From: Thermocatellispora tengchongensis
GTDB taxonomy: Bacteria > Actinomycetota > Actinomycetes > Streptosporangiales > Streptosporangiaceae
Direction: 5' to 3'
DNA: 64,000 bases
Assembly: GCF_014202315.1 (NCBI RefSeq)
Contig: NZ_JACHGN010000025.1
Span: 62,001-126,000, forward strand
This document shows, in pieces, positions 12,023 to 28,763 of this stretch; the first letter of the stretch is position 1, and every line of letters starts with the position of its first letter. The notes below the pieces were generated by a model. The model was not told where the DNA came from and did not search any database. It saw only the letters and a program-made list of their open reading frames with translations. Position numbers and translations under genes: made by a program.

Positions 12023-12065
12023 GAGCCGACGAGGGGAATCGAACCCCTGACCTGCTGTTTACAAG
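12023..12065. repeat. attL: 43-bp partial tRNA-Thr copy
   Basis: The 43 bp are identical to 28690-28732. On the minus strand they cover the anticodon loop through the discriminator base of tRNA-Thr, without the 5' half, so no functional tRNA is encoded here. Identity stops abruptly after the anticodon-loop AAG on the inner side. Confidence 0.95.
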
Positions 12066-12149
12066 CTAGGCACGGAGCTGAGACCAGAGCCTCGCCGCCC
12101 TGGTCAGACGTATGGAGGTGATCGCCCGGGTGCGGGGTTGTGTGCCTGC

Positions 12150-12178
12150 GTTGCTGTACTTCTGTGCTGTACAGCAAC
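12150..12178. repeat. Left-end TGCTGTAC-N5-TGCTGTAC direct repeat
   Basis: TGCTGTAC occurs at 12152-12159 and 12165-12172, separated by five bases. The same arrangement occurs near the right end at 28621-28641. The left copy is also part of a perfect 10-bp inverted repeat, GTTGCTGTAC with GTACAGCAAC. Position 85-90 bp inside the att core suggests arm-type integrase or Xis binding sites. Confidence 0.6.
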
Positions 12179-12221: not shown

Positions 12222-12335
12222 GGCAAGCGGACCCGAACCGCAGGGCCGCCAAGGCCCGAGGACTGGAAGCCGCGCGGCAAGCTGGCCTTCCGCTTTTCAG
12301 GCGGAGTAGGCATCCTACTCGCCTGATCGGGAGCG
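12222..12335. repeat. Left copy of a structured, tRNA-like imperfect repeat
   Basis: This segment shares blocks with 14232-14380. CCTTCCGCTTTTCAGGCGGA (12286-12305) is identical in both, and GGCAAGCG(G)ACCCG-ACCGCAGGGCC is nearly identical. On the minus strand the 20-bp block folds as an anticodon-arm-like hairpin with loop CTGAAAA, as in tRNA-Phe(GAA). No full cloverleaf was found, so it is not called a tRNA. Confidence 0.6.
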
Positions 12336-12415: not shown

Positions 12416-12868
12416 TCATGCCATGACGGCACATATCAACAGCAGTGACAGCCCGTAGAGCCCGATGGCGAAGTGCAAGACCACCCACAGCCGATGAAGG
12501 CGGATGCGATGCATCCGGGGGAAGGCACGGTAGTGATCAGCGCGTGCCTTCACCAACCTCTCATCAGTGCCCAGTACCCCACGCTCCGCAAGGTCTTTGG
12601 TCAAAGCACGCGCCTGAGACAGGTGGTAGGAAGCCCTCTCGTAGTACTTCGAGACAGCGACAGCGCCGTACAGGCCAGTCATCGAGATAAAGACACACAA
12701 GGGCAAAACGTACAGCGAGAAGCGCTGCTGAACGATCAGAGCGCTCAAGGCTGCTGTGATGACGATCAGAAGGTTGCTAAGCGTCGAACGCTGAGTCTCA
12801 CACTGGCGTAGCTGCTCCCGATGTTCCTTCCAGTAGGCGCGTATCGCTTCATCCGAGATCTCGGCCAT
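12416..12868 (-). CDS. Small three-helix membrane protein, divergent partner of the DUF4062 protein
   Basis: A 150-residue protein of no certain family. An N-terminal charged helix (EHREQLRQCETQRSTL) leads into a hydrophobic hairpin at about residues 32-70 (LLIVITAALSALIV, then YVLPLCVFISMTGLYGAVAV). A soluble helical stretch of about 55 residues follows, then a third transmembrane helix (WVVLHFAIGLYGLSLLLICAV). The layout recalls small SLATT- or RipA-like membrane proteins found with nucleotide-signalling and TIR-like sensors, but no diagnostic motif can be cited. GGCGGAG precedes the ATG. Only 89 bp separate it from the divergent DUF4062 gene, so a shared promoter region is likely. A membrane-disrupting effector role is inference. 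Confidence 0.75.
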   Translation of the reverse strand: MAEISDEAIRAYWKEHREQLRQCETQRSTLSNLLIVITAALSALIVQQRFSLYVLPLCVFISMTGLYGAVAVSKYYERASYHLSQARALTKDLAERGVLGTDERLVKARADHYRAFPRMHRIRLHRLWVVLHFAIGLYGLSLLLICAVMA

Positions 12869-12957
12869 TGACTCCGCCCCACCTGCATCCGGATACCATG
12901 TGCTGCACGGACCGCCCTGGTTCGCAAGTGAACCTCGACCGGTGGAGACATCGTATC

Positions 12958-14079
12958 GTGAGAGTCTTTATCAGCAGCACACGGAAAGGCTTGGAGGAAG
13001 AGCGCGACTCCCTCCCCGGTTTGATCACCGCGCTGGGCCATACGCCAGTGCGCTTCGAAGACTTCTCAGCCCAGACCACTCCGAGCAGAGAGGCATGCCT
13101 GGCGGCTCTGGAGTCCGCAGATGTCTGTCTGTTCATTTTGGGTCCCAACTATGGTCACGTGTTCCCGGAAACTGGACAGTCGGCCACGCATGACGAATGG
13201 GTGCACGCACAACGTCTGGGGACGCCACGGCTGGTCTACCGTAAGACCGGGGTGATATTCGAGCCCGACCAGCACAAATTCACGCGCATCGTGGAGGCTT
13301 ATGCGACAGGCGTGTTTCGGGACTCCTTCTCCAACAGCGTGGAGCTTCAGACCAAGGTCGTCAAAGGCTTGCGCGAGCTGGATTCAAAACCATCTCCCCT
13401 AGAATTCAGAAGATTGACCCAGAAGCCTCCCCTCATCTGGATCGCAGATGACGACAGAGTACATTCATTTGGTAGCAGTCAAGACTCTCTACTCGAACTA
13501 CACGTGCTACCAATGGATTACCCTGGGTACTCGGCCCGCGAGATGGACCGATTCACTGATTCGCTAGTGAGTCGGGTCCGCGGGACCGAATACATCGAGA
13601 GTGGCCAGGCGCTCCACCTTTTCAGATCCCAGGATCACGCGGCTGTCAGTATCGAGAGCAATCAGCATCGCGCATGGGACAAACCCCAAAAAGGGGAGAT
13701 CAGAGAAGTTCGTCTGTATAAGACGGGGCAGGTCTCCGTTCGATCAACCCTCCCCAGAGACCAGATGGGCTCAATTCTGGATCCCGAAGCGCTACCGAAG
13801 CAGCTCGCTGAGATGCTGCGATTTATAGGAGCGTTGGGCATTATCCAACAAGGACATGTCGTCGTGGCAGCCGGCGTGCCGTCGGACGGACTCATCAGCG
13901 TCGATACCTTTGATCCGCATCGCTTGCGGACCCGTGCCCAGCCGTTGGGCTTTGGCCGTTCGGCTGGCATGTACCGCACTGAACCGGACGAGTCCATCAG
14001 CCTGGCAGCTTTGGAGAATGGAGCTCACGAAGTCGGCAGCGACCTCTCCCGAGCACTGTTTGGTCGGCTACGGACGTAA
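12958..14079 (+). CDS. DUF4062 (TIR-like fold) domain protein with uncharacterised C-terminal region
   Basis: A 373-residue protein. The first 95 residues are a DUF4062 domain, starting MRVFISSTRKGLEEERDSL and containing PVRFEDFSAQTTPSREACL, DVCLFILGPNYG and SATHDEWVHAQ. DUF4062 has a TIR/SLOG-like fold and commonly serves as the N-terminal module of defence STAND proteins. Here it is not fused to an NTPase; the C-terminal 230 residues match no domain I know. The GTG at 12958 starts exactly at the domain and follows GGTGGAGA; an ATG 90 bp upstream would run into the neighbouring promoter. Codon use is less GC-rich than the chromosome, suggesting transfer. Confidence 0.82.
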   Translation: MRVFISSTRKGLEEERDSLPGLITALGHTPVRFEDFSAQTTPSREACLAALESADVCLFILGPNYGHVFPETGQSATHDEWVHAQRLGTPRLVYRKTGVIFEPDQHKFTRIVEAYATGVFRDSFSNSVELQTKVVKGLRELDSKPSPLEFRRLTQKPPLIWIADDDRVHSFGSSQDSLLELHVLPMDYPGYSAREMDRFTDSLVSRVRGTEYIESGQALHLFRSQDHAAVSIESNQHRAWDKPQKGEIREVRLYKTGQVSVRSTLPRDQMGSILDPEALPKQLAEMLRFIGALGIIQQGHVVVAAGVPSDGLISVDTFDPHRLRTRAQPLGFGRSAGMYRTEPDESISLAALENGAHEVGSDLSRALFGRLRT

Positions 14080-14694
14080 TCATTTGTAGTCCCTTGATTC
14101 AGCAGACCGCTCCACCTGGTGAACCTCGTTCTCCGGCCTCCTCAAGTACTGGGCCACTCACGGCAGGTTTGCCATGCCAATCGTGGCGCTGGGTTAGCGC
14201 GCTCCGTGTACCGAGAACCTGCTTACCCGATGGCAAGCGACCCGTACCGCAGGGCCCAGGGCTGGGATATCTGGCCCACCCGACCAGATCGGGAATATGC
14301 TCGCGACAACCATCAGGAATGGAAGCCCCGTGGCAGCATGACCTTCCGCTTTTCAGGCGGAACAATCATCCTGCTCGGGTGACGGTGGCGTGGGTGCGTC
14401 GGTGGGCGGGGACGTTGCTGTCAGTGCTGCTGTCACCCCAGCCATGGTCACCCGGTGGCAAGGCCCGACGGAGGAGGGCCTTGCCGGCGATCGCCCCAGC
14501 CCATACGGCGAGGGCCGAAGTCCGCGATCGTCACGGCCTCAGCCCGCTTCAGACAACGGGAACCCGCCCGGAGATAGAGCTTACCTGCCGGGCCTCGATC
14601 ACATAGGCTTTCGCAGAGGCGGGCTCAAGATCTGTCTCATAGTAGGCGATCAGACCATTGCAGTTAGTTTGAGCTCGCGCCAGCGGAGGTGGCC
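14080..14694. other. Intergenic region without a supported gene; holds the second structured repeat
   Basis: The first half holds the tRNA-like repeat at 14232-14380. The second half (14390-14694) is plain GC-rich sequence followed by an AT-richer stretch before the STAND gene, where its promoter must lie. Open frames across it have no recognisable product. Confidence 0.5.
14232..14380. repeat. Right copy of the structured, tRNA-like imperfect repeat
   Basis: It shares CCTTCCGCTTTTCAGGCGGA (14342-14361) with the left copy at 12286-12305, plus flanking blocks, with a longer insert between them. On the minus strand ACCCGA and TCGGGT at the outer edges are complementary, closing a possible long stem. 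The pair of repeats frames the DUF4062/membrane-protein module. Confidence 0.6.
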
Positions 14695-17295
14695 ATGGGG
14701 AACGTCAAGGCGACGCGTGCTACGGAACGTGCTGGCGTAAATTATGTGCGAACGACCCTAGATTCGATAAATCAAATTGTGCAGGAGACATCGTCCTCCA
14801 ATGATTTCGGAGAGGATTTGTATGTCAACCTCGTCGAAAACGACTCCCGCACCGGAGATTTGATTCTCATTCAGGTTAAGAGCGGTCCGAGCTATAAACG
14901 GAGCGACGGATATCGAATCCCGGTTGGCGACCATCTGGAGTTTTGGAAGAATTGCAACGTACCCATTTTTGGGGTGGTCTACGACGTCGACGAGGAAGTC
15001 GCATACTGGGTAAACATCAGCGAGTATCTAGCTACCGAAACGTTGAGCAGCGCGATTAAGGTAGCGAGAGTCCCTGAACGGCAATTGACTCGGACTAATG
15101 CCAGCAACTTCATCTCTCACGCGATAGAGTTTTGCGCTAACTGGCATAGAGCTAGTCGGCCATTGATTGCGAGGCGCCTACAAGCAGCTTCATCAAACAA
15201 CCAAAGATTTGTCGGTCGGATGGAAGCACGTCAAATCCTTCACGACTTTCTACACGAAGATGCTTACACCTGCGCCATAATTTCTGGCATCGCCGGAACG
15301 GGAAAGACGGCCTTGGCACAGGTCAGCGCAGCTGACGCCATTAACGCCTTTCCCGGCGGTGTAATTTTCATCGATATGCACGGCTTCGCAACATCCTCGC
15401 GAAGGGGCCAAGCGCGTGACGCTTATCGCACTTTGCTGATGGCGCTTGGGTTGGACTCAGCAGATATTCCAGACCGCCATGGCGAGCAAGCGGCGCTATA
15501 TCATTTAACCTTGCATATGCTTGCTGAGACAAATAAGCCCGTTCTTGTCGTGTTCGACAATGTTGCCGACCCTTCCCAAGTAGTCGACCTCATCCCATCA
15601 TCGCCTCCTCACAAAGCGCTAGTTACTTCACGAGAAAAGCTCAGCTACTTCGTCGATGCTTATCATCTGCTAATTCCAGAGCTCGCACCTACGGAATCTG
15701 CGACTCTACTGGAAGGTGCGCTTGAGGCCACTTCGGCCAAGCGGACTGTCAATACCACCGATCCTGAAGTCATCAGGCTATCGAATTTGTGCGGCAACCT
15801 ACCACTCGCACTAAGAATATCAGCCGGTATTCTTGCCGAAGACCCGCACCTGTCGATAGCTGACCTCAATGCAGAGCTTGCGGAACGACGTTCAGCACTC
15901 GATGTTCTTCAGCACGGGGATCTGGCAGTACGAGCCGCACTCATAACCTCATATGCACGACTTCCGCAAGATCGTCGGCACGATTTTACATCCCTCGCCA
16001 TAATACCCAGTCCCGAATTCGCTTTGAGTTCGGCGGCCACGGTATGGCAGTCCGACCAGAGGACTGCCCGCCAAAACCTCCGTAGGCTAGCAGAAACCCT
16101 TCTCATCGAGCCGGCTGGAGCGCCTGAGAGATGGCGCATGCACGACCTCGTTTACGCCTTCGCGGAAGAGCAGCTGGAGGACGTATCTCCGGAGAAGAGG
16201 AGTGCTGCCACTGCCTCTCTCATGGATCTGTTTGTTGAACATGTCCAGAACGCCAACTGGCAACTACGTCCGGACAGAGGAGAGGAGCATAGGGCCAAAG
16301 CTTTCGCCAATGCACAGGACGCTATTTCGTGGTTTGGCCAGGAATTAAGCACTCTAACTGAGCTCATTGAGCGGGGCTTCGCTCTCGGAGAAGATGGAAC
16401 TGAAAATGCTTATTTGATAGCGATGAATCTAGTCGAATACCTAGGTAGAACGCGTCAAGCTGATCGGGCTGTCTACGTTGGAGAGCGAGCACTAGACGCC
16501 GCGAAGCAGCTGAAAGATGTGGAACGCCAATGCCGGGCCTTGAACAATCTCGGTCTCGCACTGACTGCAGCGAACCGGCTCGCCGAGGCTAGACAAAAGC
16601 TTCTTAAAGCGGTGGCGATTGCGGAACGTCGTGGCTATAGAAAGCTTGTGGCAGGTCCCTTGATTAGTCTTAGCGCCGTCCAGCGCGGCTTAGAAGGACC
16701 TGCGGCAGCTATCCCCACTCTGCAGCAGGCAGTCAGCTATGCTTTCGCCGTGGGCGAAGATCATGGTATTGCAGCTGCGTTGACCAATCTCGGCATGGCT
16801 TATCGCGAAGCCGGCCGCAACGACTTAGCAGTGCAAACACTCCAGCAAGCACTCCCTTTTCATCATGCGTCGCGAGACCACGGGAACACAGGATCCGGCT
16901 ACACCAACCTGGGACTTGCTCTTACTGCAATAGGACATCTCACCGATGCTGTCCAGGCCTTCAAGCTAGGGATGATGTTCTACAAGAAAGCATACGATCG
17001 CCATGGAGAGGCGTGTGCGGAACTGGGCCTCGGTCGCGCCCTCGCTCGAAAGGGGAATATCTCTGAGGCAAAGCCTTTCTTGAGAAGCGCCCTAACCGCA
17101 GCTCAAGAACTGGCGGACAAACGCCTGGAGGGCGAGGCCCTGATGGAATACGGTCATTTGGCCCGAGTTTTGGGTGACCTTGCTGCCGCTGATCGTTACT
17201 TTTCGCTATCCGCAGCAGCTTACGAGGACGCTGGCTACACTGACGCGGCATCAGCGCTAGAGGAGATTCGTCGTGAACTTCACTCATCTGGTTGA
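14695..17295 (+). CDS. STAND NTPase: DUF4365 nuclease-like domain, NB-ARC ATPase and TPR repeats
   Basis: An 866-residue NLR-like protein. Residues 1-150 look like DUF4365, a predicted PD-(D/E)XK nuclease domain: Asp55 followed by the Gln-x-Lys of LILIQVKSG (60-62). Residues 170-490 are NB-ARC: Walker A GIAGTGKT (198-205), Walker B VLVVFDNVAD, ALVTSRE, the GLPL-like GNLPLAL (367-373) and MHD at 482-484. From about residue 560 to the end are TPRs (ALNNLGLALTAANRLAEARQ, AALTNLGMAYREAGRNDLAV). GGAGG lies 5 bp before the ATG at 14695. Proteins of this plan in bacteria sense phage components through the repeats, oligomerise and switch on the N-terminal effector. The gene is visibly AT-richer than its neighbours. 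Anti-phage function is inferred. Confidence 0.88.
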   Translation: MGNVKATRATERAGVNYVRTTLDSINQIVQETSSSNDFGEDLYVNLVENDSRTGDLILIQVKSGPSYKRSDGYRIPVGDHLEFWKNCNVPIFGVVYDVDEEVAYWVNISEYLATETLSSAIKVARVPERQLTRTNASNFISHAIEFCANWHRASRPLIARRLQAASSNNQRFVGRMEARQILHDFLHEDAYTCAIISGIAGTGKTALAQVSAADAINAFPGGVIFIDMHGFATSSRRGQARDAYRTLLMALGLDSADIPDRHGEQAALYHLTLHMLAETNKPVLVVFDNVADPSQVVDLIPSSPPHKALVTSREKLSYFVDAYHLLIPELAPTESATLLEGALEATSAKRTVNTTDPEVIRLSNLCGNLPLALRISAGILAEDPHLSIADLNAELAERRSALDVLQHGDLAVRAALITSYARLPQDRRHDFTSLAIIPSPEFALSSAATVWQSDQRTARQNLRRLAETLLIEPAGAPERWRMHDLVYAFAEEQLEDVSPEKRSAATASLMDLFVEHVQNANWQLRPDRGEEHRAKAFANAQDAISWFGQELSTLTELIERGFALGEDGTENAYLIAMNLVEYLGRTRQADRAVYVGERALDAAKQLKDVERQCRALNNLGLALTAANRLAEARQKLLKAVAIAERRGYRKLVAGPLISLSAVQRGLEGPAAAIPTLQQAVSYAFAVGEDHGIAAALTNLGMAYREAGRNDLAVQTLQQALPFHHASRDHGNTGSGYTNLGLALTAIGHLTDAVQAFKLGMMFYKKAYDRHGEACAELGLGRALARKGNISEAKPFLRSALTAAQELADKRLEGEALMEYGHLARVLGDLAAADRYFSLSAAAYEDAGYTDAASALEEIRRELHSSG

Positions 17296-17520: not shown

Positions 17521-18249
17521 CTATGGCCAGTACGGCTTGGCGCTGGCCCAGACGCGCTCGAAGCTGTGCAGGTAGGTGACCACGGTGCCGTCGTCCTCGG
17601 CTCTCCGGAGATGCATGACGGGAGCGTGAGCGGCTGGAACGCCGTAGGCATGGACGTTGACGAGGAACTGGTCGTCCGCCCGGTAGATAGAGTTGTAGAG
17701 CACCGTCCCGTGTAGCCGGACCTCGACCCCCGGTTCGTCGCAGAGAGGTTGGTAGAGCGCGAGGGCGTTGGTGATCCTGGCGGCCATGACCTCCGATCCG
17801 ATGTGTTCCTCCGTGCCTCGGGTGGCTACCTCGGTGCTGTCGGGGTCGCCGAGGAGGATGCGGAGTTTGACGCCTGCGCGGGCGCGGCTGGTGAGGATGC
17901 GGAGCAGGCCGGCGTCTTCGGCCAGGAAGAGCGCGCTGTAGGCAAGGATGCCGATTTCGGTGGTCGCGCTCTGGAACAGGTCGCGCCAGACGGCGTGCGG
18001 GACGGCCCAGCGATGCGGATACACGGCCTGCACTTCGTCGCTGTAGGACCGGTGCCGTCGCGCGACCTCCGGCCACAGGTCCGCCTCGTCCACCTGGAGA
18101 AGGTCCGCCACCGCCCACCGGTGTCGCGGATACGGCACGCGGCCCTTGAGCCAGCGGTGCACCGTCTTGGGGTCGACGGCCAAGGCGGCGGCGACGTCGT
18201 TAGGGTGCAGCCGGGCGGCGGCCAGCGCGTACCGGAGGTTGTCGTTCAC
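17521..18249 (-). CDS. XRE-type regulator with degenerate phospholipase-D-like C-terminal domain (copy 1)
   Basis: A 242-residue protein. The N-terminus is an XRE-like helix-turn-helix (DVAAALAVDPKTVHRWLKGR). The rest is a domain with PLD-like features: LRILLGDPDS in the middle, and GTVLYNSIYRADDQFLVNVH, where the family HxK motif would be; the lysine is missing, so it is probably a ligand-binding and not a catalytic domain. A GTG start follows AGGAG with 7-bp spacing. The close paralogue at 20267-21004 has the same layout. It is divergent from the gene at 18388, with tandem AGACGTCCCT motifs between them that may be its operator. Confidence 0.82.
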   Translation of the reverse strand: MNDNLRYALAAARLHPNDVAAALAVDPKTVHRWLKGRVPYPRHRWAVADLLQVDEADLWPEVARRHRSYSDEVQAVYPHRWAVPHAVWRDLFQSATTEIGILAYSALFLAEDAGLLRILTSRARAGVKLRILLGDPDSTEVATRGTEEHIGSEVMAARITNALALYQPLCDEPGVEVRLHGTVLYNSIYRADDQFLVNVHAYGVPAAHAPVMHLRRAEDDGTVVTYLHSFERVWASAKPYWP

Positions 18250-18295
18250 CGCGTGCTCCTCTCGGGAAACCGGCCCCGCCAGTGACGTTAACATG

Positions 18296-18315
18296 AGACG
18301 TCCCTAGACGTCCCT
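18296..18315. promoter_or_regulatory. Tandem AGACGTCCCT operator-like repeats
   Basis: AGACGTCCCT occurs twice in direct succession (18296-18305, 18306-18315) between divergent genes. Related TGAGACGTCC pairs occur at 19186-19205 and GGACGTC sites at 21020-21057, always next to regulator genes of this element. Confidence 0.55.
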
Positions 18316-18387
18316 TAGTTGCGGTGTTCCGGCCGACAGCAAAAAGCGACTCTCGAACACACGCCACACTTCCGAGGGTCAAGGAGC

Positions 18388-18747
18388 ATGCACATGCGGA
18401 GCAGTCAGGTCGTCCGCGAGCAGCAGCGGGCCTATCAGCAGGCCCTGTTGACCAACCTGCGCAAGGAGCTCACCGCCCGGGACGTTCCGGCGGTCCTCAT
18501 CGTGACCGAGGACGGACGTCCCGCGCTGGACGTCACCGACAGCCGATGCCGGTCCCGCCGGATCTTCGTACATCTGCCGTTCTGCTGGTTCTACTGGGGA
18601 GACCAGCACGACGAGCGGGTGTCGTTCCTGCGCCTCCCAGACGCGGCCGACCGCATCACCCAAGCGGCACGCGACGGCTGGCGCGAGGGCGAGCAAGGCG
18701 AACTCGGCATCGACCTGAGCAAGATCGTCGATGCGTACCGTCCGTGA
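18388..18747 (+). CDS. Conserved-looking AICE hypothetical protein
   Basis: A 119-residue soluble protein without a recognised domain. It starts with MHMRSSQVVREQQRAYQQAL, a charged helix, and includes an unusual aromatic run, FVHLPFCWFYWGDQ, at the centre. AAGGAG precedes the ATG directly. It is divergent from the XRE/PLD regulator gene and overlaps the tandem-GntR gene by 17 bp, so the two are probably co-expressed. Its role in the element (regulation or transfer) is unknown. Confidence 0.7.
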   Translation: MHMRSSQVVREQQRAYQQALLTNLRKELTARDVPAVLIVTEDGRPALDVTDSRCRSRRIFVHLPFCWFYWGDQHDERVSFLRLPDAADRITQAARDGWREGEQGELGIDLSKIVDAYRP

Positions 18748-19198
18748 GATCGTGACCGGCTGGCGGGTTTACTCCCAGATCGCCGACCGGCTGCGCAGGC
18801 GGATCACCGAGGGCGTCTACCCGCCCGGAAGCGTCCTGCCGTCCGAGGCGGAGCTGTGCGCCGAGTTCGGCATCGCCCGCAACACCGCCCGGCGCGGCCT
18901 GGCCGTCCTGGAAGGCGAGGGGCTGATCGTCACCATCCCCGCCAAGGGACGGATCGTGGCCGGCGGTGAGGCCACGCCGTACCGGTACCGGCAGATCGCC
19001 GACGATCTGCGCGCCCAGATCGAAGTAGGCGAGATCGCGCCCGGCGCGGCCGTGCCGAGCGAGGCCGAACTCCGGGAGCGCTATGCCGCCTCGCGCAACA
19101 CCGTGCGGCAGGCGCTCGCCGTACTCCAGGGGGAGGGCCTGATCGTGGCCGAGCACGGACGCGGCCGGTTCGTGCGGTGTTGGGATGAGACGTCCTGA
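18731..19198 (+). CDS. Tandem double GntR helix-turn-helix protein
   Basis: A 155-residue protein built from two consecutive GntR winged-helix domains and almost nothing else. The first is YSQIADRLRRRITEGVYPPG, then RNTARRGLAVLEGEGLI. The second is YRYRQIADDLRAQIEVGEIA, then RNTVRQALAVLQGEGLIV. Usual GntR proteins have one such domain plus a ligand-binding or oligomerisation domain; here both are HTH, so one polypeptide could bind a pseudo-palindromic or tandem site. The stop codon lies inside the TGAGACGTCC repeat pair. A role like KorSA of pSAM2 (a GntR repressor of the transfer functions) is a reasonable guess. Confidence 0.85.
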   Translation: MRTVREIVTGWRVYSQIADRLRRRITEGVYPPGSVLPSEAELCAEFGIARNTARRGLAVLEGEGLIVTIPAKGRIVAGGEATPYRYRQIADDLRAQIEVGEIAPGAAVPSEAELRERYAASRNTVRQALAVLQGEGLIVAEHGRGRFVRCWDETS

Positions 19199-19205
19199 GA
19201 CGTCC
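19186..19205. promoter_or_regulatory. Tandem TGAGACGTCC repeats before the HD-domain gene
   Basis: TGAGACGTCC is perfectly duplicated head to tail (19186-19195, 19196-19205), overlapping the stop codon of the tandem-GntR gene and ending just before the HD gene. It matches the core of the motif at 18296-18315 and is likely an operator of this element's own regulators. Confidence 0.55.
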
Positions 19206-19253
19206 ATGCCTGCCCCTGGATCCGCGCCGGTACGGCACGCAATCGTGGACAGC

Positions 19254-19820
19254 ATGGGACAAGCTGAATGGGCGCGTGACCTCGCCAGAGACCTGCTGGA
19301 GACGACCCTGCCGCGCCGGTGGGCGCACGTCCAAGGCGTCGCCGCGCAGGCCGAAAGCCTGGCTCCGATCCTCGGGGACGACGCCGACATCCTGATCGCC
19401 GCGGCCTATCTGCACGACATCGGGTATGCGCCCGGCCTGGTCGACACGGGGTTCCACCCGCTGGATGGCGCACGCTACCTGCGCGACGTCGTCAAGGCGG
19501 ACGCTCGCCTGTGCCGCCTGGTCGCCCATCACACCTGCGCGGTCAACGAAGCACGCAACCGGAACCTGTTCGACGCCCTGACGACCGAGTTCGGCGAGGA
19601 GCGTCCTGACCTGATGGACGCGCTGACCTACTGCGACATCACCACCGGCCCCGACGGTCAGCGCCTCACCGCGACCGAACGCCTGGCGGAGATCCATGCC
19701 CGCTACGGCCCCGATCACCTGGTGAGCCGGTCCATGACCGTGTCGACACCGCGCATCATGGCCGCCGTGCGCGCGGTGGAAGCCGCTCTATCCGATGTAC
19801 GGCAGGCCGGTACCGGCTAG
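19254..19820 (+). CDS. HD-domain phosphohydrolase-like protein
   Basis: A 188-residue HD-superfamily protein. The metal-binding residues show as His in RRWAHVQGVA, His-Asp in AAYLHDIGYAPGL and His-His in VAHHTCAVNE. A last Asp may be in ALTYCDITTG. Such domains hydrolyse nucleotides or phosphoesters. The ATG at 19254 begins the domain naturally; an ATG at 19206 adds 16 residues and touches the operator repeats. It overlaps the Nudix gene tail to tail by 33 bp. HD plus Nudix on an AICE suggests nucleotide-pool or signal-nucleotide control. Confidence 0.85.
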   Translation: MGQAEWARDLARDLLETTLPRRWAHVQGVAAQAESLAPILGDDADILIAAAYLHDIGYAPGLVDTGFHPLDGARYLRDVVKADARLCRLVAHHTCAVNEARNRNLFDALTTEFGEERPDLMDALTYCDITTGPDGQRLTATERLAEIHARYGPDHLVSRSMTVSTPRIMAAVRAVEAALSDVRQAGTG

Positions 19821-20264
19821 GTAGTGCTCGATCCGCATCCGCATAGCGCGGTCCATCGTCAGCGACAGGACCTCGTCCCGGGGAACCCAGCGGACCTCGC
19901 GCGACTCGGTGCTCGGCGTCAGCTCGCCGCCGACAGCACGCGCGGTCAGGACGATGGAGAACTCCTGGCGGGCCTCGCCGTTGGACGTGTAGAGGATCAC
20001 ATGCCGAGGGTCGGTGTAGATGCCGACCAACCCGGTGATCTCACACTGGATCCCCGTCTCCTCCAGGGTTTCGCGGATCGCCGCCTGGGGGGCGGACTCG
20101 CCCAGATCGATGGCGCCGCCCGGGAGCGCCCAGTTGTCGTTGTCGGTGCGGCGGATCATCAGCACGTCCCCGGCCTCGTTGGTGACCAGGGCGTTGACCG
20201 AGGGCACCATGCTGTTGGGCGCAGGCGCGTTCGGGTCGTCGTGGAAGTCGATCCGCGTGGCCAT
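19788..20264 (-). CDS. Nudix hydrolase, Pif-like
   Basis: A 158-residue Nudix protein with a complete catalytic box: GAIDLGESAPQAAI followed by RETLEETGI. It would hydrolyse a nucleoside diphosphate linked to another moiety. In the AICE pSAM2, the Nudix protein Pif gives conjugal immunity against entry of the same element, so an entry-exclusion role is likely by analogy. The start ATG is 2 bp downstream of the stop codon of the XRE/PLD gene, so the two form an operon. The C-terminal codons overlap those of the HD gene on the other strand. Confidence 0.88.
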   Translation of the reverse strand: MATRIDFHDDPNAPAPNSMVPSVNALVTNEAGDVLMIRRTDNDNWALPGGAIDLGESAPQAAIRETLEETGIQCEITGLVGIYTDPRHVILYTSNGEARQEFSIVLTARAVGGELTPSTESREVRWVPRDEVLSLTMDRAMRMRIEHYLAGTGLPYIG

Positions 20265-20266
20265 GG

Positions 20267-21004
20267 TCAGAACTGTATCGGCCGCGCTCCGGCCCACACC
20301 TTCTCGAAGCTGCTGAGGTAGGTGGTGACCATGTCGCCGCCGGCCACTCGTCTCAGATGAAGGACCGGGGCGTTGGCGGCCAGCTCACCGTACACGTGCG
20401 TGTTGACGAGCACCTGGTCATCAGCCCGGTAGATGGAGTTGTACAGCACCGTCCCGTGCATCCGGAACTCGCCGACCTCGCTCAGCGGCGCGTACAGGGC
20501 CATCACGTTTCTGATCTTCGCGGCGATGGCCTGCTCGCCGATTCCCTCATCGGCGCTGCGCTGGATCACGACCGGTGACTCGGGATCGCCCAGGAGGACG
20601 CGCAGCCGTACCCCGGCGGCGGCCTTGTCCTTCAGCAGGCGGATGATGCCGGCGTCTTCGGCCAGGAACATCCCGACGTAGACGAGGATGTCGATGTTCT
20701 GCGTCGCCTCGCTGAACAGACGTCCCCAGGTGTCCCTCGGCATGATCCATCGGTGGGGATAGATCGTCACGACTTCGCTCTCGGATGCGGCGATGACCTG
20801 CTCCCGGCTCAGAGCCTGCGGCCACAGGTACGTCTCGTCCACGCCGAGGAAGGACGCCGTGGCAAACCGGTGTCTTCGGTACGGCTGCCGGCCCTGGGTG
20901 ATCCACCGCTCGACGGTCTTGGGATCGACCTCAATCGCCTCGGCCAGTTCGGCGATGCTCACGCCCTTCTCCAACAAGGCCGCGCGTAGCCGCTCGTTCG
21001 CCAT
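20267..21004 (-). CDS. XRE-type regulator with degenerate phospholipase-D-like C-terminal domain (copy 2)
   Basis: A 245-residue paralogue of the protein at 17521-18249. It has the same helix-turn-helix (SIAELAEAIEVDPKTVERWI), the same VTIYPHRWIMPRDTWGRLF segment and LRVLLGDPESPVV, and shares HGTVLYNSIYRADDQ, with no lysine in the HxK position. The ATG at 21004 is preceded by the GGTGAGAT region; the longer frame crosses the GACGTC motifs. It is followed immediately by the Nudix gene. Duplication within one element suggests two regulators with related ligands or operator preferences. Confidence 0.83.
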   Translation of the reverse strand: MANERLRAALLEKGVSIAELAEAIEVDPKTVERWITQGRQPYRRHRFATASFLGVDETYLWPQALSREQVIAASESEVVTIYPHRWIMPRDTWGRLFSEATQNIDILVYVGMFLAEDAGIIRLLKDKAAAGVRLRVLLGDPESPVVIQRSADEGIGEQAIAAKIRNVMALYAPLSEVGEFRMHGTVLYNSIYRADDQVLVNTHVYGELAANAPVLHLRRVAGGDMVTTYLSSFEKVWAGARPIQF

Positions 21005-21019
21005 CTCACCTGCCCACAG

Positions 21020-21057
21020 GGACGTCCGGGGACTTGACCATCGTAGGCCGGACGTCT
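21020..21057. promoter_or_regulatory. GGACGTCC and GGACGTCT operator-like sites upstream of XRE copy 2
   Basis: The palindrome GGACGTCC lies at 21020-21027 and GGACGTCT at 21050-21057, upstream of the minus-strand XRE/PLD-Nudix operon. They match the core repeated at 18296-18315 and 19186-19205. Confidence 0.5.
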
Positions 21058-21152
21058 TGAACATGTCCCGTCGTGTAGTGATCTCGTCCTGACTCTGCGT
21101 CGCATTCTCGGTTCGCCAGCACGAAATCCCGGACCGAGAGGAGACGATCACC

Positions 21153-21944: not shown

Positions 21945-22274
21945 ATGCGTACCGTCCCGATCCCTGTCGACACGTCCAAGCTCACGATCACCTGCGTCAA
22001 GGCCCCGGCCCCGCGCGTCCTCAACCGCGACACCGGCGAGATCAAGACCGACAAGAACGGCAACACCGTCTACGAGGTCACCGCCAGCGTGGAGGACGAG
22101 TTCGGCCGGATCGAACTCGTCAAGATCGCCACCACCGGGGAACCACCCGTCAAGGCCGGCGACCAGCTCAGCCCGGTCGGCCTGCTCGGCTACGTCTGGG
22201 AGATGGCCGGCCGGTGGGGCATCTCCTACCGCGCCTCCGCCCTGCTCCCGGCGCGGGAGGCGGCCGATGTCTGA
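21945..22274 (+). CDS. Conserved AICE hypothetical protein upstream of the FtsK-type gene
   Basis: A 109-residue protein with no named domain. The sequence suggests a small beta-rich fold (VYEVTASVEDEFGRIELVKI), with no signal peptide or membrane helix. A strong AAGGAGGT lies 8 bp before the ATG. Its end overlaps the FtsK-type gene by 8 bp, indicating coupling. Proteins at this position are widespread in actinomycete elements, but their role has not been settled to my knowledge. Confidence 0.75.
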   Translation: MRTVPIPVDTSKLTITCVKAPAPRVLNRDTGEIKTDKNGNTVYEVTASVEDEFGRIELVKIATTGEPPVKAGDQLSPVGLLGYVWEMAGRWGISYRASALLPAREAADV

Positions 22275-23607
22275 CGCCTCCGTCTGGTCCGCAGTCCTGG
22301 CCGCCACGGCGGCCGGGCTGTGGGCCTGGCGCCGCTGGCACTACCCGTCCTTCTGGTACCTGGTCGGCTACCCGATCACCGCCGTCTCGGTGCGCGCCTC
22401 CTGGCGGCGCGTGGCGCTGGGCTGCGGGCTGACCAAGAAGCGGCAACGCTGGTGGTTCACCACCGTCCCGGGCGCGATCGCCTCCACCGGCATCGTCCGC
22501 GTCAAGCGCCGTTTCCAGCGGGTCGCCGTCGACACCAAGCCGTTTATGTGGCTGCCGCTGCCGACCCGGTACGGCTGGCGCGTCACCCTGCACACGCTGG
22601 AGGGCCAAACGCCGGGCGACTACGCCGACGCGGCCGAACGCCTCGCGCACTCCTGGGGCGTGCACGCAGTCCGGGTCTCCTCCCCCCGGCCGGGGCGGGT
22701 GGTGCTTCAGGCGACCATCCGCGACCCGCTGGTCAAGGTCGACCACTTCCCGCCGTCGCCGGAGTTGCTGAGGGTCACTGTCGGGCGGCTGGAGACCGGC
22801 AAGCCGTGGATCATCGACTTCCGCACTGTGCCGCACTGGCTGAATGCGGGCGCGACACAGAGCGGCAAGTCCAACCTGGCCAACGCGCTCATCGTCGGCC
22901 TGGCGCCGCAGCCGGTGGCGCTGGTGGGCTTCGACCTCAAGGGCGGCGTGGAGTTCACCCCCTACAGCCCGCGGCTGTCTGCCCTGGCCACCTCGCGGGC
23001 CGAGTCGCTGACGCTGCTCGATGACCTGGTCGCCCTCATGGTCGACCGCATGGGAGTGTGCCGCCAGGCCGGCGCCCGCAACATCTGGCAACTCCCGCCC
23101 GCGCTGCGGCCGGTCCCGATCGTGGTCCTGGTCGATGAGCTGGCCGAGCTGTACCTGATGGCCGACAAGAGCGAGAAAGACGAGATCGCCCGCACCTCCA
23201 CGGCGCTGCTGCGGGTGGCCCAGCTCGGCCGGGCCTTCGGCATCTACCTGTTCTGCTGCGGCCAGCGCATCGGCTCCGACCTCGGCCCCGGCGTCACCGC
23301 CCTGCGCGCCCAGTGCTCCGGCCGCATCTGCCACCGGGTCAACGACCCCGAAACCGCCACCATGACCCTCGGCGACCTCGACCCGACCGCGCTCGTCTCC
23401 GCCCGCGCCATCCCCGCCGAAACGCCCGGCGTCGCGATCGTCGCCGGTCAAGACGGCCAGTGGTACCGCGCCCGCTCCTTCTACGTCAGCGAGGCCACCG
23501 CCGAACACGCCGCCCGCACGTACGCCCACCTCGCCCCGTCCTGGGACGAGATCACCGCCCACCTGACCGGCACCGACGCCGACCTGCCCGAACTGCTGGA
23601 CGCCTGA
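22267..23607 (+). CDS. FtsK/SpoIIIE-type DNA translocase, TraSA/TraA-like
   Basis: A 446-residue protein. An N-terminal membrane-associated segment of about 45 residues precedes the ATPase. Walker A is GATQSGKSNLAN (near residue 195) and Walker B IVVLVDELAEL (near residue 287); FGIYLFCCGQRIGSDLGPGV fits the FtsK core. In pSAM2-type elements one FtsK-like protein suffices to move double-stranded DNA between mycelia, so this is the transfer protein. It lacks a gamma DNA-recognition domain like that of chromosomal FtsK. It overlaps the preceding gene and is followed by the DUF2637 gene. Confidence 0.92.
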   Translation: MSDASVWSAVLAATAAGLWAWRRWHYPSFWYLVGYPITAVSVRASWRRVALGCGLTKKRQRWWFTTVPGAIASTGIVRVKRRFQRVAVDTKPFMWLPLPTRYGWRVTLHTLEGQTPGDYADAAERLAHSWGVHAVRVSSPRPGRVVLQATIRDPLVKVDHFPPSPELLRVTVGRLETGKPWIIDFRTVPHWLNAGATQSGKSNLANALIVGLAPQPVALVGFDLKGGVEFTPYSPRLSALATSRAESLTLLDDLVALMVDRMGVCRQAGARNIWQLPPALRPVPIVVLVDELAELYLMADKSEKDEIARTSTALLRVAQLGRAFGIYLFCCGQRIGSDLGPGVTALRAQCSGRICHRVNDPETATMTLGDLDPTALVSARAIPAETPGVAIVAGQDGQWYRARSFYVSEATAEHAARTYAHLAPSWDEITAHLTGTDADLPELLDA

Positions 23608-24983: not shown

Positions 24984-26348
24984 ATGCCCGTTTCTACCAC
25001 CAATCCGCACGCCCTCACTGGGCTGATCTCTCGGCTCAACGCCCCCGACTTCGACCGGTGGGCCGCCCAGATCCACCGCACCGGCGGCTGCCGCCAGCCC
25101 ATCCACCTGCGCGGCAAGGTCGAACACTACGACGCCGCCACCGGCGCCCTGCTCCACCGCTACACCACCCGCACCGAACCCAACGGCGTCCTGCGCCTGC
25201 CCTGCAAGACCCGTCGTGCCTCCCGCTGCCCTGCCTGCGCCGAGGTCTACCGCGCCGACACCTACCACCTCATCCGCGCCGGCCTGGTCGGCGGCAAGGG
25301 CATCCCCGAGACGGTCACCACGCACCCGACGCTGTTCGTCACCCTGACCGCCCCATCGTTCGGCGCCGTCCACACCCGCCGCGATCAGAACGGCAAGACG
25401 CTGCCCTGCCACGCCCATCGCAACGCGCCTACTTGTCCGCACGGCCGCGCCCTGTCCTGCACCGAACGCCACAGCAAAGACGACCCTCGCCTGGGCGAAC
25501 CGCTGTGCCCGGACTGCTATGACTACACCGGCTCGGTGCTGTTCAACGCGCTCGCCCCCACCCTGTGGAAACGCTTCGCCGACTCCCTGCGCCGCCACCT
25601 GGCCAAGCTCGGCGGCCTGACGCTCAAGGACCTCCCGCACCACCTGACCGTGTCCTTCGCCAAGGTCGCCGAATACCAGCGGCGCGGCGTCGTCCACCTC
25701 CACGCCGTCCTGCGCCTGGACGGCCCCGGCGGCCCTGACCTGCCGCCCCCGGCCTGGGCCACCGCCGAAACGCTGGAGCAGGCCGTACGGCACGCCGCCC
25801 GCGTCGTCAGCGCCCTGGTCCCCGCCTACGACGACCAGCCCGCCCGCCTGCTCAAGTGGGGCAGCCAGCTCGACATCCGCCCCATCACCCTGCACGGCGA
25901 CCTCACCGAGCAGGCCGTCGCCGGCTACATCGCCAAGTACGCCACCAAGGCCGCCGAATGCGTCGGCACCTTGGATCGCCGCATCAACCCGCTCGACAAC
26001 CTTGACGCCTACAACCTGCGCGACCACGCCAAGCGGCTGATCCGCGAATGTCTTCGCCTGGGCGCCATCGAGGAGCTGGCCGACCTGCGGCTCACCGAGT
26101 GGGCGCACATGCTCGGCTTCCGCGGCCACTTCTCCACTCGCTCCCGTCACTACGGCCCCACCCTCGGCGACCTTCGCGCCGCCCGCGAAACCCACGCCCG
26201 CGAGATCACCCTTGGCCGCCTCCCGCTCTTCGACGAGGACACCGTTCTCGTCATCAGCGAATGGACCTACGCGGGCAAGGGCCACTCTGCCGGAGACCAG
26301 CTCCTCGCCGCCGCTCTGACCGGCACACCGCTGAGGAGGCCCGTATGA
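24984..26348 (+). CDS. repSA: RepSA-like rolling-circle replication initiator
   Basis: A 454-residue HUH-type initiator of the pSAM2 RepSA class. A cysteine-rich zinc-binding N-terminal part (LPCKTRRASRCPACAEVY) precedes LFVTLTAPSFGAVH (motif 1). The HUH metal motif shows as GVVHLHAVLRL near residue 235, and the tyrosine motif as YIAKYATK near residue 316. It nicks the element's origin and is needed for replication after excision. It overlaps xis by 4 bp, the usual rep-xis-int order of AICEs. Confidence 0.92.
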   Translation: MPVSTTNPHALTGLISRLNAPDFDRWAAQIHRTGGCRQPIHLRGKVEHYDAATGALLHRYTTRTEPNGVLRLPCKTRRASRCPACAEVYRADTYHLIRAGLVGGKGIPETVTTHPTLFVTLTAPSFGAVHTRRDQNGKTLPCHAHRNAPTCPHGRALSCTERHSKDDPRLGEPLCPDCYDYTGSVLFNALAPTLWKRFADSLRRHLAKLGGLTLKDLPHHLTVSFAKVAEYQRRGVVHLHAVLRLDGPGGPDLPPPAWATAETLEQAVRHAARVVSALVPAYDDQPARLLKWGSQLDIRPITLHGDLTEQAVAGYIAKYATKAAECVGTLDRRINPLDNLDAYNLRDHAKRLIRECLRLGAIEELADLRLTEWAHMLGFRGHFSTRSRHYGPTLGDLRAARETHAREITLGRLPLFDEDTVLVISEWTYAGKGHSAGDQLLAAALTGTPLRRPV

Positions 26349-26527
26349 GCGCCGAACTCCTCACCGTGCCCGAAGCGATGGCCCGTCTCAAGGTCAGCCG
26401 CTGGACCCTCTACAACCTCATCCGCTCCGGCCAGATCACCTCGATCCTCGTCAGCGAACGCTGCCGCCGTATCCCGGCCGACGCTCTCGACGCCTATGTG
26501 ACCCGGCTCTGCGAGGAGGTCGCCTGA
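26345..26527 (+). CDS. xis: Excisionase (Xis), MerR/HTH_17-type
   Basis: A 60-residue DNA-binding protein with a single winged helix-turn-helix (LLTVPEAMARLKVSRWTLYN, then GQITSILVSERCRRIP). It belongs to the HTH_17 excisionase class, which directs integrase towards excision. The gene overlaps the initiator stop by 4 bp and its stop shares one base with the integrase ATG, so rep, xis and int are translationally coupled. Confidence 0.93.
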   Translation: MSAELLTVPEAMARLKVSRWTLYNLIRSGQITSILVSERCRRIPADALDAYVTRLCEEVA

Positions 26528-27783
26528 TGCCCAAGCGAGCGAACAACGAGGGCTCGATCTTCCCGTATCGGAACGGCTACGCGGCTTATGTCTGGGTCAC
26601 CACGCCGGACGGCACCAAGACCCGCAAGTGGGCGTACGGCAAGACGCGCGAGGAGACCCACGAGAAGTGGCTCAAGCTCCACGAGCAGGCGCGCAAGGGG
26701 CCCGTGGTCACCAAGTCGGAGACCGTCGCCGCCTACCTGGAGCGCTGGCTGCGCGAGGTCGTGGAGCCCAACCTCGCCCCCAAGACCGCCGCCCTCTACG
26801 AGATGTTCGTCCGGCTCTACATCACACCGGAGCTCGGCAAGAAGCGGCTGGACAAGCTGACGGTCCGCGACGTTCAGGGCTGGCTGAACAAGATCCGTAC
26901 GGCCTGCCAGTGCTGCATGCAAGGCAAGGATGCCAAGCGACCCGAGAAGCACAGCGATCCGAAGAAGCGGCGCCACTGCTGCGCGGTCGGGAAGTGCTGC
27001 AAGCAGCAGCCCTCTGGCGGCACGATCCGCAACGCCCACATGACGCTGCGGTCCGCCCTGGAGAACGCCGTCCGCGAGGAGATCATCTCCCGCAACGTGG
27101 CGGCGAACGTCAAGATTCCACTCCCGCGACGGAAGAAGATCAAGCCGTGGACCGTCGAGGAGGCCCGCCGGTTCCTGGAGTCGGCACACGACCGGCGTGA
27201 TCCGATGTACGCGGCCTACGTCCTGGTCCTCGTTCTCGGCCTGCGCCTTGGTGAAGCGCTCGGCCTCCGCTGGGCGGACGTCGACCTCGACGCCGAGGAG
27301 ATGGCGATCGGCTGGCAGATCCAGCGGGTCCGCAACCGCCTGCTTCACCGCCAGACCAAGACGCACGACTCCGATGCGACGCTCCCCCTGCCCTCCATCG
27401 CCGCCGCCGCGCTCCGAGACCGGCATACAGCCCACGAAGCAACCCGCGAGAAGGCCGGAGATGGCTGGCAGGACACTGGCCTCGTCTTCACCACGGCCAG
27501 CGGCAAGCCCATCGAGCCGTCGAACTTCGTCCGCAGCTTCAAGGCCGCCTGCCACAAGGCCGGCGTCCGCGAGATCAACGTCCACGCCACCCGCAAGACC
27601 TGCGCCTCGCTCCTCGTCGCCCTCGACGTCCACCCGCGCGTGGCCATGCAGATCCTCCGCCACAGCCAGATCTCCGTCACCATGAACGTCTACAGCGAAG
27701 TCTCCACCGAGGAGACCCGCAAGGCTCTCCGTCGACTCGGCGAACGTCTCGGCCGCGGCCGGATCCCCGAGCCGGATGAATGA
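26527..27783 (+). CDS. int: Tyrosine recombinase, AICE integrase
   Basis: A 418-residue phage-type integrase. An N-terminal AP2-like arm-binding region (NNEGSIFPYRNGYAAYVWVT) is followed by a SAM-like core-binding domain (TVAAYLERWLREVVEPNLAP), here with a cysteine-rich insert (CQCCMQGKDAKRPEKH and CCAVGKCCKQQ). The catalytic domain shows Arg in LGLRLGEALGLRWADVD, HATRKTC, His in LRHSQISVTM and the nucleophile Tyr in NVYSEV. It recombines the 43-bp tRNA-Thr core. The cysteine-rich insert around residues 125-160 is unusual for integrases and may bind zinc. Confidence 0.94.
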   Translation: MPKRANNEGSIFPYRNGYAAYVWVTTPDGTKTRKWAYGKTREETHEKWLKLHEQARKGPVVTKSETVAAYLERWLREVVEPNLAPKTAALYEMFVRLYITPELGKKRLDKLTVRDVQGWLNKIRTACQCCMQGKDAKRPEKHSDPKKRRHCCAVGKCCKQQPSGGTIRNAHMTLRSALENAVREEIISRNVAANVKIPLPRRKKIKPWTVEEARRFLESAHDRRDPMYAAYVLVLVLGLRLGEALGLRWADVDLDAEEMAIGWQIQRVRNRLLHRQTKTHDSDATLPLPSIAAAALRDRHTAHEATREKAGDGWQDTGLVFTTASGKPIEPSNFVRSFKAACHKAGVREINVHATRKTCASLLVALDVHPRVAMQILRHSQISVTMNVYSEVSTEETRKALRRLGERLGRGRIPEPDE

Positions 27784-28386: not shown

Positions 28387-28620
28387 AGCGCTGCAATCTA
28401 CTCCTCAGGCCCTGTGGTGAGTACTCCAAATTCTGCTGTTGAACCAGGGATTGAGCGGAATAGCAGTGGCGGCAAGAACGGCGAGCTACAGGGCAGACTG
28501 ACCCTGTAGGTCAACGCCCGCGCCATGAACGCAGAGGGCGGGACTTGGCGTCGCACCCAACCCGGCGTGGCTCAAGAGACGCGGCATCACCCTCTTCGAC
28601 AAGCAGCCACTGCGTCCCGT

Positions 28621-28641
28621 TGCTGTACTTTGCTGCTGTAC
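28621..28641. repeat. Right-end TGCTGTAC-N5-TGCTGTAC direct repeat
   Basis: TGCTGTAC at 28621-28628 and 28634-28641 with five bases between, the same unit and spacing as at 12152-12172. It lies about 50 bp inside attR. Candidate arm-type integrase or Xis sites. Confidence 0.6.
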
Positions 28642-28649
28642 AAGATCCA

Positions 28650-28682: not shown

Positions 28683-28689
28683 CACCTGG

Positions 28690-28763
<74 letters not shown>

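Follow-up and report, generated by a model that had tools for sequence, protein, structure and literature searches.

We analyzed two paralogous regulator genes, A and B, in a 64,000-nucleotide stretch of the genome of Thermocatellispora tengchongensis (contig NZ_JACHGN010000025.1, positions 62,001 to 126,000; this whole stretch is called the window and its first letter is position 1). They are carried by an actinomycete integrative and conjugative element (AICE) of 16.7 kb, an assignment made because an integrase, attachment (att) repeats at a transfer RNA (tRNA) gene, a replication initiator and an FtsK-like transfer gene are all present. Judging from sequence, A and B probably keep this self-transferring element quiet through matching paired DNA sites. 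The best explanation of the data as a whole, to which we give an even chance, is that they arose by duplication and act together as the master repressors of the AICE; among its parts, a shared operator and autoregulation are very likely, and repression rather than activation is likely. In the proposed mechanism, both proteins would bind GACGTCC-type direct repeats, one helical turn apart, through a Cro/CI-type helix-turn-helix (HTH). B would occupy its own promoter (sites OB1 and OB2) and one site within its coding sequence, and the site of A would sit between divergent promoters. A further site would lie at the start of an HD-domain gene, with another immediately upstream of the integrase gene in sister elements. 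The outcome would be an autoregulated and cross-regulated two-repressor switch that silences the element, and the C-terminal domain of each protein, a phospholipase D (PLD) fold that has lost the lysine of its HxK motif, may act as a non-catalytic sensor or oligomerization domain. The two genes are as follows.

17521-18249, minus strand: gene A, GTG start, 242 amino acids, Cro/CI-type HTH and degenerate PLD-like domain.
20267-21004, minus strand: gene B, ATG start, 245 amino acids, Cro/CI-type HTH (residues 1-63) and degenerate PLD-like domain (residues 76-244).

A and B are 54% identical across 242 columns (E-value 2e-88), and the stretch HGTVLYNSIYRADDQ has the same letters in both. The stop codon of B lies 2 nucleotides from the start of a Nudix gene (TGA-CC-ATG), and A is divergent from a hypothetical gene at 18388-18747. 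These results agree with an initial annotation of the window, which had described two XRE/PLD-like paralogues in one element, one coupled to the Nudix gene and the other divergent from a hypothetical gene, with a fully conserved stretch and a PLD-like domain that keeps the histidine but not the lysine of HxK. It had also drawn attention to GACGTCC sites, which proved to be the core of a shared operator that is conserved across relatives, and had named a predicted structure of the C-terminal domain as a check; the structure, run for B, is PLD-related.

The model of B (alignment of 91 sequences) had a predicted local distance difference test score of 94.3 and a predicted template modeling score of 0.79. 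When residues 76-244 were compared with known structures using VIA-align, the best match was TrmBL2 (Z 14.8, root-mean-square deviation (rmsd) 2.4 over 136 residues), followed by the DUF1669 domain of FAM83B (Z 13.6), the nucleases NucT (13.5) and Nuc (13.4), both aligned over 137-141 residues, and the sugar-binding domain of TrmB (2f5t; Z 12.6, rmsd 3.0, 131 residues). In the model, therefore, the C-terminal domain of B is a PLD fold, and the C-terminal domain of A is predicted from its identity to B to have the same PLD-like fold. Sequence profiles gave B a sub-threshold match to PLDc_2 (E 0.0015) and a match to DUF5919 (PF19319; E 0.017, 15.3 bits against the Pfam cut-off of 23.5), and matched A to neither. 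DUF5919, an uncharacterized domain that overlaps the PLD-like domain of the family, was found at E≤0.01 in nine of 19 relatives (best 3.8e-5). Among relatives with a different HTH, the C-terminal part of L268 (3995-4861) scored 24.5 bits and that of L263 scored 23.3, just below the cut-off; because the L268 part passes it, DUF5919 probably shares the PLD fold modeled for B, and the model thereby supplies a likely fold for this domain. A sequence search of the PDB with the regulators returned matches to HTHs and to designed repeats, as well as short PLD stretches.

Residues 1-63 of B matched repressor-type HTHs (Z 10.4-11.0), i.e. those of CapH, P22 c2 (10.9) and ImmR (7t8i, 10.4), and C.AhdI was also an HTH fold match at Z 10-11. 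By sequence, HTH_3 was found with a best E of 2.9e-9 among 19 members of the family, with A and B falling under the curated cut-offs, and neither A nor B matched the TrmB winged HTH (PF01978) at E≤0.1. The HTH stretch VDPKTVxRW is identical in A and B, which fits one shared type of site, and its residues V26, D27, K29, T30, R33 and W34 are present in 64 of 64 family rows.

Active PLD motifs read H-x-K-x4-D. In the model of B, His183 is kept and the lysine position is occupied by Thr185; A likewise reads H-x-T. Across 316 aligned rows, 304 of which have a letter in this column, the residue was T in 266, A in 13, S in 6, P in 6, V in 4 and another in 9, with 12 gaps and no lysine, while the H183 column held H in 283 rows, S in 15, Q in 3, others in 4 and a gap in 11. 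In the 64 family rows H183, Y188, S190, D195, N201 and H203 are invariant and T185 is present in 98%. Each of these seven residues, together with R181, reaches at least 90% in a 91-row family set, and the eight look like a kept pocket for this reason; in the most diverse set, of 19 rows, only R181, D195 and H203 of the eight reach 90%. The family-wide conservation of H183, D195 and H203, and the closeness in fold of the single-motif PLD nucleases Nuc and NucT, would suit a domain that is still an enzyme, with H183 and other conserved residues hydrolyzing a phosphodiester, i.e. a DNA-targeted phosphodiesterase or nuclease. We consider this improbable, given that lysine is absent from all 316 rows, that the family spacing is H-x-T-x9-D, unlike that of the active motif, and that the position of the genes and their autoregulatory operators suit a regulator.

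We used the DNA around the genes to define the putative operators. Over the whole window GACGTCC occurs 27 times against 22.7 expected, and 22 of 100 shuffles were as high; since this enrichment is not significant, the case is carried by the clustering of the sites (11 of the 27 copies fall in 18297-21056) and by their conservation across genomes. A matrix built from relatives only, with the window left out, gave its four best window scores in the A/B cassette (33.2, 23.2, 20.9 and 15.5), the next being 10.1 and the maximum in five shuffled windows 14.0. The candidate operators and the associated promoter element are listed below.

18296-18314, plus strand: operator OA, AGACGTCCCTAGACGTCCC, two direct repeats 10 base pairs (bp) apart, between the divergent gene A and hypothetical gene; matrix score 33.2.
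19187-19205, plus strand: operator at the start of the HD gene, GAGACGTCCTGAGACGTCC; matrix score 20.9.
20718-20736, plus strand: operator copy within the reading frame of B; matrix score 15.5.
21020-21035, minus strand: operator OB2, AAGTCCCCGGACGTCC, downstream of the -10-like box of B; matrix score 23.2.
21040-21045, minus strand: putative -10-like box of B, TACGAT.
21050-21069, minus strand: operator OB1, GGGACATGTTCAAGACGTCC, a 10-bp tandem on the upstream side of the -10-like box.

Upstream of A, the pattern GGGAC[GT]TC[TC]NGGGAC[GT]TC was present in 58 of 66 relatives (window left out) and in none of 200 shuffles. Upstream of B, the OB2 pattern was present in 61 of 78 relatives (shuffled maximum 1), and the window's own OB2 deviates from this pattern yet scores well with the matrix; an OB1 pattern fitted after viewing the alignment was present in 73 of 78 relatives and in none of 200 shuffles. 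In the 80 best-ranking of 330 relatives, referred to here as the named loci, matrix hits of at least 8 were found in the HD/GntR interval of 50 and inside B in 53. The intragenic site does not appear to be a by-product of the protein sequence, because the codons under it are biased in a way that points to constraint on the DNA: the Gly94 codon is GGA in 64 of 65 B genes, compared with 4-18% at 13 other glycine columns, and the Arg95 codon is CGT or CGA in 75%, the next highest arginine column reaching 56%. Of 58 readable tyrosine integrase genes in sister elements, 22 have a near-perfect operator within 250 bp upstream (19 of 53 once duplicated loci are removed), and in element L171 an operator scoring 16.2 precedes a serine recombinase gene.

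The repeats start 10 bp apart; spacings of 20 and 30 bp are likewise frequent upstream of B, and spacings of 13 and 23 bp are common upstream of A because of a conserved TTAnCGTC downstream (these counts include the window's own sequence). Outside the family, a lag-10 tandem (at least seven of eight positions) was present in 20 of 49 non-redundant Nudix-linked upstream regions, with a shuffled mean of 1.95 and maximum of 6; the next best lag was 11, in 10 upstream regions, and the half-site sequences drift while the one-turn tandem persists. From the 10-bp geometry we infer that successive protomers would occupy the same face of the DNA in a head-to-tail array and bind cooperatively. BldC, an actinobacterial regulator, binds DNA direct repeats in this head-to-tail manner according to the accessible text of PMC5859096, and the 10-bp tandem sites described here are likewise direct-repeat operators; BldC differs in being MerR-like and lacking an effector domain, and for A and B head-to-tail binding is a prediction.

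The resemblance to BldC extends to the HTH sequence, as the BldC model NF033787 matched A and B with E 6.7e-6 and 4.8e-5 (25.9 and 23.1 bits, below its cut-off of 77), and several genes have sites next to their start or upstream of it. Both observations would fit A and B being activators of the B-Nudix, A, HD and integrase genes. We regard activation as having only a slim chance: the -10-like box, which is conserved, has OB1 on one side and OB2 on the other, and a further operator is internal to B, an arrangement that suits repression.

The genes that lie between A and B in the window are as follows.

18388-18747, plus strand: hypothetical cassette gene, 119 amino acids, no Pfam or PHROG family; model pLDDT 87.
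18731-19198, plus strand: protein of 155 amino acids with two tandem GntR winged HTHs (PF00392, two stretches, E 3.3e-37).
19206-19820, plus strand: HD-domain phosphohydrolase (PF01966, E 5.8e-11), with a presumed start codon past the operator.
19788-20264, minus strand: Nudix hydrolase (PF00293, E 1.4e-23), starting 2 nucleotides after the B stop codon.

The hypothetical protein has a predicted alpha/beta fold for which Foldseek found no match at E≤0.001, and no effector domain was found by Pfam in the GntR protein. In PDB sequence searches, the HD protein had nothing below E 0.1, while the Nudix protein matched many Nudix structures, none of which names a substrate.

This cassette is conserved. 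A Nudix gene is present in all 80 named loci; 77 also have HD, 76 a distinct A, 70 GntR and 35 the hypothetical gene, and of the four loci that lack A, three end early or have a cut flank. The gene order is also kept, with B and Nudix in one direction, HD, GntR and, where present, the hypothetical gene in the other, and then A in the direction of B. In a 105-locus set, which includes the 80 and counts certain genomes twice, 100 loci have B followed downstream by an A of the same orientation, and the remaining five have no distinct A. The order is maintained both in elements whose transfer gene is 78-91% identical to that of the window and in others where the identity is 26-32%, and it is still kept in L171, where the serine recombinase replaces the tyrosine integrase. 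In a tree of 66 rows, A forms one clade of 27 and B one clade of 27 (Shimodaira-Hasegawa-like approximate likelihood ratio test 98 and 91), which points to one duplication maintained as a pair. Of the five homologues in the source genome, four form two B+A pairs and the fifth is a B on its own. The regulator family was matched in 126 of 200 sampled genomes of the host's family, in 116 of 394 in a sample of the class (some matches being partial), and in 17 of 396 in a sample of the phylum, where a single-protein query had lower sensitivity. In the actinomycete genome G403 (L073-L077), several genes share this type of HTH but do not match the PLD-like part, which suggests that the HTH also has other partners at its C-terminal side.

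The initial annotation had also proposed that a catalytic fold had been recast as a sensor, whose ligand could be a nucleotide processed by the Nudix or HD protein. Of the first proposal, the PLD fold and the loss of the lysine stand, and TrmB provides a precedent; sensing itself would be an extrapolation from these, and we favor a ligand-sensing role slightly. The second proposal is suggestive: a signal from the Nudix and HD enzymes would be consistent with the 2-nucleotide B-Nudix junction, with the placing of HD under the same type of operator, and with swaps of the HTH. Twelve loci (L263-L271 and L274-L276) match the family in the C-terminal part only, and all have Nudix and HD nearby. In four of them (L263, L268, L270 and L274) an HTH_31 above the Pfam cut-off is fused to the PLD-like domain, L264 and L265 are similar to the HTH_31 relatives by eye (seven of the twelve were read), and for the N-terminus of L271 Pfam gave no match. 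What stays with Nudix and HD is thus the C-terminal domain and not the part that binds DNA. In addition, the presence of H183 and of Nudix co-occurred across rows (64 + 15 concordant, 3 + 5 discordant; Fisher p 4e-10). This association is not independent evidence because it comes mainly from one clade, as set out below.

If these elements are combined, the level of the effector would be set by the cassette's Nudix and HD enzymes, which is the weakest step of the mechanism; that the effector is a small phosphorylated molecule controlled in this way is a tentative suggestion. More speculative still is a complete small-molecule circuit, in which Nudix and HD would set a phosphorylated signal that is read by the lysine-less pockets of A and B, with the repressors head to tail on the 10-bp repeats, among them the intragenic site in B, and that tells the element whether the cell already has a copy. 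If true, this circuit would supply the mechanism that is still missing for conjugal immunity based on Nudix proteins. A competing explanation is that the PLD-like domain is only a dimerization or oligomerization scaffold, that A and B are ligand-free repressors like TrmBL2, and that Nudix and HD are linked to them in another way, e.g. through conjugal immunity. We consider this possible but doubtful. TrmBL2 is the best fold match, the phage-type clade lacks H183 and mostly lacks Nudix, and the Nudix protein of an AICE has already been tied to immunity in the case of Pif of pSAM2 (accessible text of PMC3218068). Yet the polar cluster of R181, H183, T185, S190, D195, N201 and H203, at its at least 90% conservation in the 91 rows, goes beyond what a scaffold would appear to need, and after the HTH swaps it is the PLD-like domain that remains with Nudix and HD.

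Several observations count against the combined picture of a sensing repressor pair. The tree places 14 of the 15 rows without H183 and Nudix in a single clade, and this phage-type clade still has two Nudix-bearing rows that lack H183. TrmBL2 lacks the sugar-binding subdomain (accessible text of PMC4877046). The first OB1 pattern tried had 0 matches in 79, and a strict sigma-70 scan found no promoter at the start of A or of B, so that the term repressor rests on the position of the operators relative to a TANNNT-like box. The window's own integrase gene has no nearby matrix hit of at least 5, and 36 of the 58 readable tyrosine integrase genes have no operator.

Phage-borne relatives without H183 and without Nudix were seen at L100 (7022-7753, phage Alderaan) and at L182-L188. 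The next annotated gene in Alderaan is Cro-like, which places the relative in the position of an immunity repressor. Viral scans with the relatives L069 and L064 found no relative.

The clustering of mdp, nud and xre genes has been published for four Frankia AICEs, Sco5349, pMEA100 and pSE211 (PMC3218068). As in the window, an XRE regulator, a Nudix protein and an HD protein (metal-dependent phosphohydrolase) are together, while the accessible text, compared by description, names no PLD-like domain, A paralogue or operator. The same text reports that Pif, the pSAM2 Nudix protein, confers conjugal immunity, with mechanism and range unknown; the Nudix protein of the window resembles Pif by domain and context, as a Nudix-domain protein in an AICE. 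Elsewhere, in the accessible portions of the papers, XRE and GntR proteins are described as transfer repressors and Nudix proteins as acting against redundant transfer (PMC11706625), and an ICE (integrative and conjugative element) gene with HTH and Nudix domains is described as perhaps CI-related (PMC9513070).

Among better-known proteins, TrmB and TrmBL2 share with A and B an N-terminal HTH and a C-terminal PLD-like fold, and TrmB senses sugars; A and B differ in having another type of HTH, in belonging to bacterial mobile elements, in being only 11-14% identical over the aligned part and in having no TrmB Pfam hit. Nuc, NucT and the DUF1669 domain of FAM83, itself a degenerate member of the PLD superfamily, share the PLD fold with B (Z 13.4-13.6), while A and B lack the HxK lysine and are fused to an HTH. 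Phage CI-type and ICE ImmR repressors have in common with A and B the HTH fold and a repressor gene in a mobile element. Those systems have an ImmA-type partner and inverted-repeat operators, whereas here the partner gene is Nudix and the operators are direct repeats.

In the literature searched, as far as openly accessible text goes (subscription papers aside), the PLD-like domain, the A paralogue and the tandem operators of the xre-nud-HD cluster were not mentioned. There was also no mention of DUF5919, and no paper combined TrmB and PLD terms, or 'phospholipase D-like' with HTH, transcriptional regulator and Nudix together. The cluster itself is therefore already published, and the fold, the paralogue pair and the operator array were not met in this search. 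In the conserved cassette, the AICE Nudix protein is tied to two specific regulators that have a clear operator and a candidate pocket. A and B come with a concrete list of DNA targets and would be a bacterial counterpart of the TrmB route from a PLD fold to a regulator.

The remaining features of the element are as follows.

12023-12065, plus strand: distal att direct repeat, 43 bp, 100% identical to 28690-28732.
22267-23607, plus strand: FtsK/SpoIIIE-like transfer gene (PHROG 1358, E 6.8e-37).
24984-26348, plus strand: rolling-circle-type replication initiator (PHROG 3419, E 6.7e-5), with homologues in AICE loci.
26345-26527, plus strand: small HTH_17 protein in the excisionase position (PF12728, E 2.8e-11).
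26527-27783, plus strand: tyrosine integrase (PHROG 1, E 3.8e-64).
28690-28732, plus strand: proximal att direct repeat, 43 bp, within the tRNA-Thr gene (28689-28763, minus strand).

A 25-bp repeat (12149-12173 and 28618-28642, 88% identical) adjoins both att copies, and these repeats are possibly integrase arm sites.

The gap between Nudix and HD is a cargo hotspot in the relatives, being at most 200 bp in 56 of 102 loci and more than 500 bp in 39 (duplicates included). Cargo lies there in L154, L158, L157, L042, L139, L162 and L048. When ten large gap proteins were tested, those at L142 and L159 had no hit and that at L093 was a transposase match; the anti-phage-like matches included a DRT UG22 reverse transcriptase, an OLD/GajA-like ATPase, ApeA-HEPN, NNH1-NACHT-LRR and DUF4062. 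The element in the window has cargo of its own, a DUF4062 protein (12868-14079) and a STAND-like DUF4365-NB-ARC-TPR protein (14689-17295); PADLOC gave weak matches for the latter and none for the former. The DUF4062 gene is flanked by 68-bp direct repeats that are 79% identical (12259-12326 and 14315-14382) and are perhaps the boundary of a cargo insertion.

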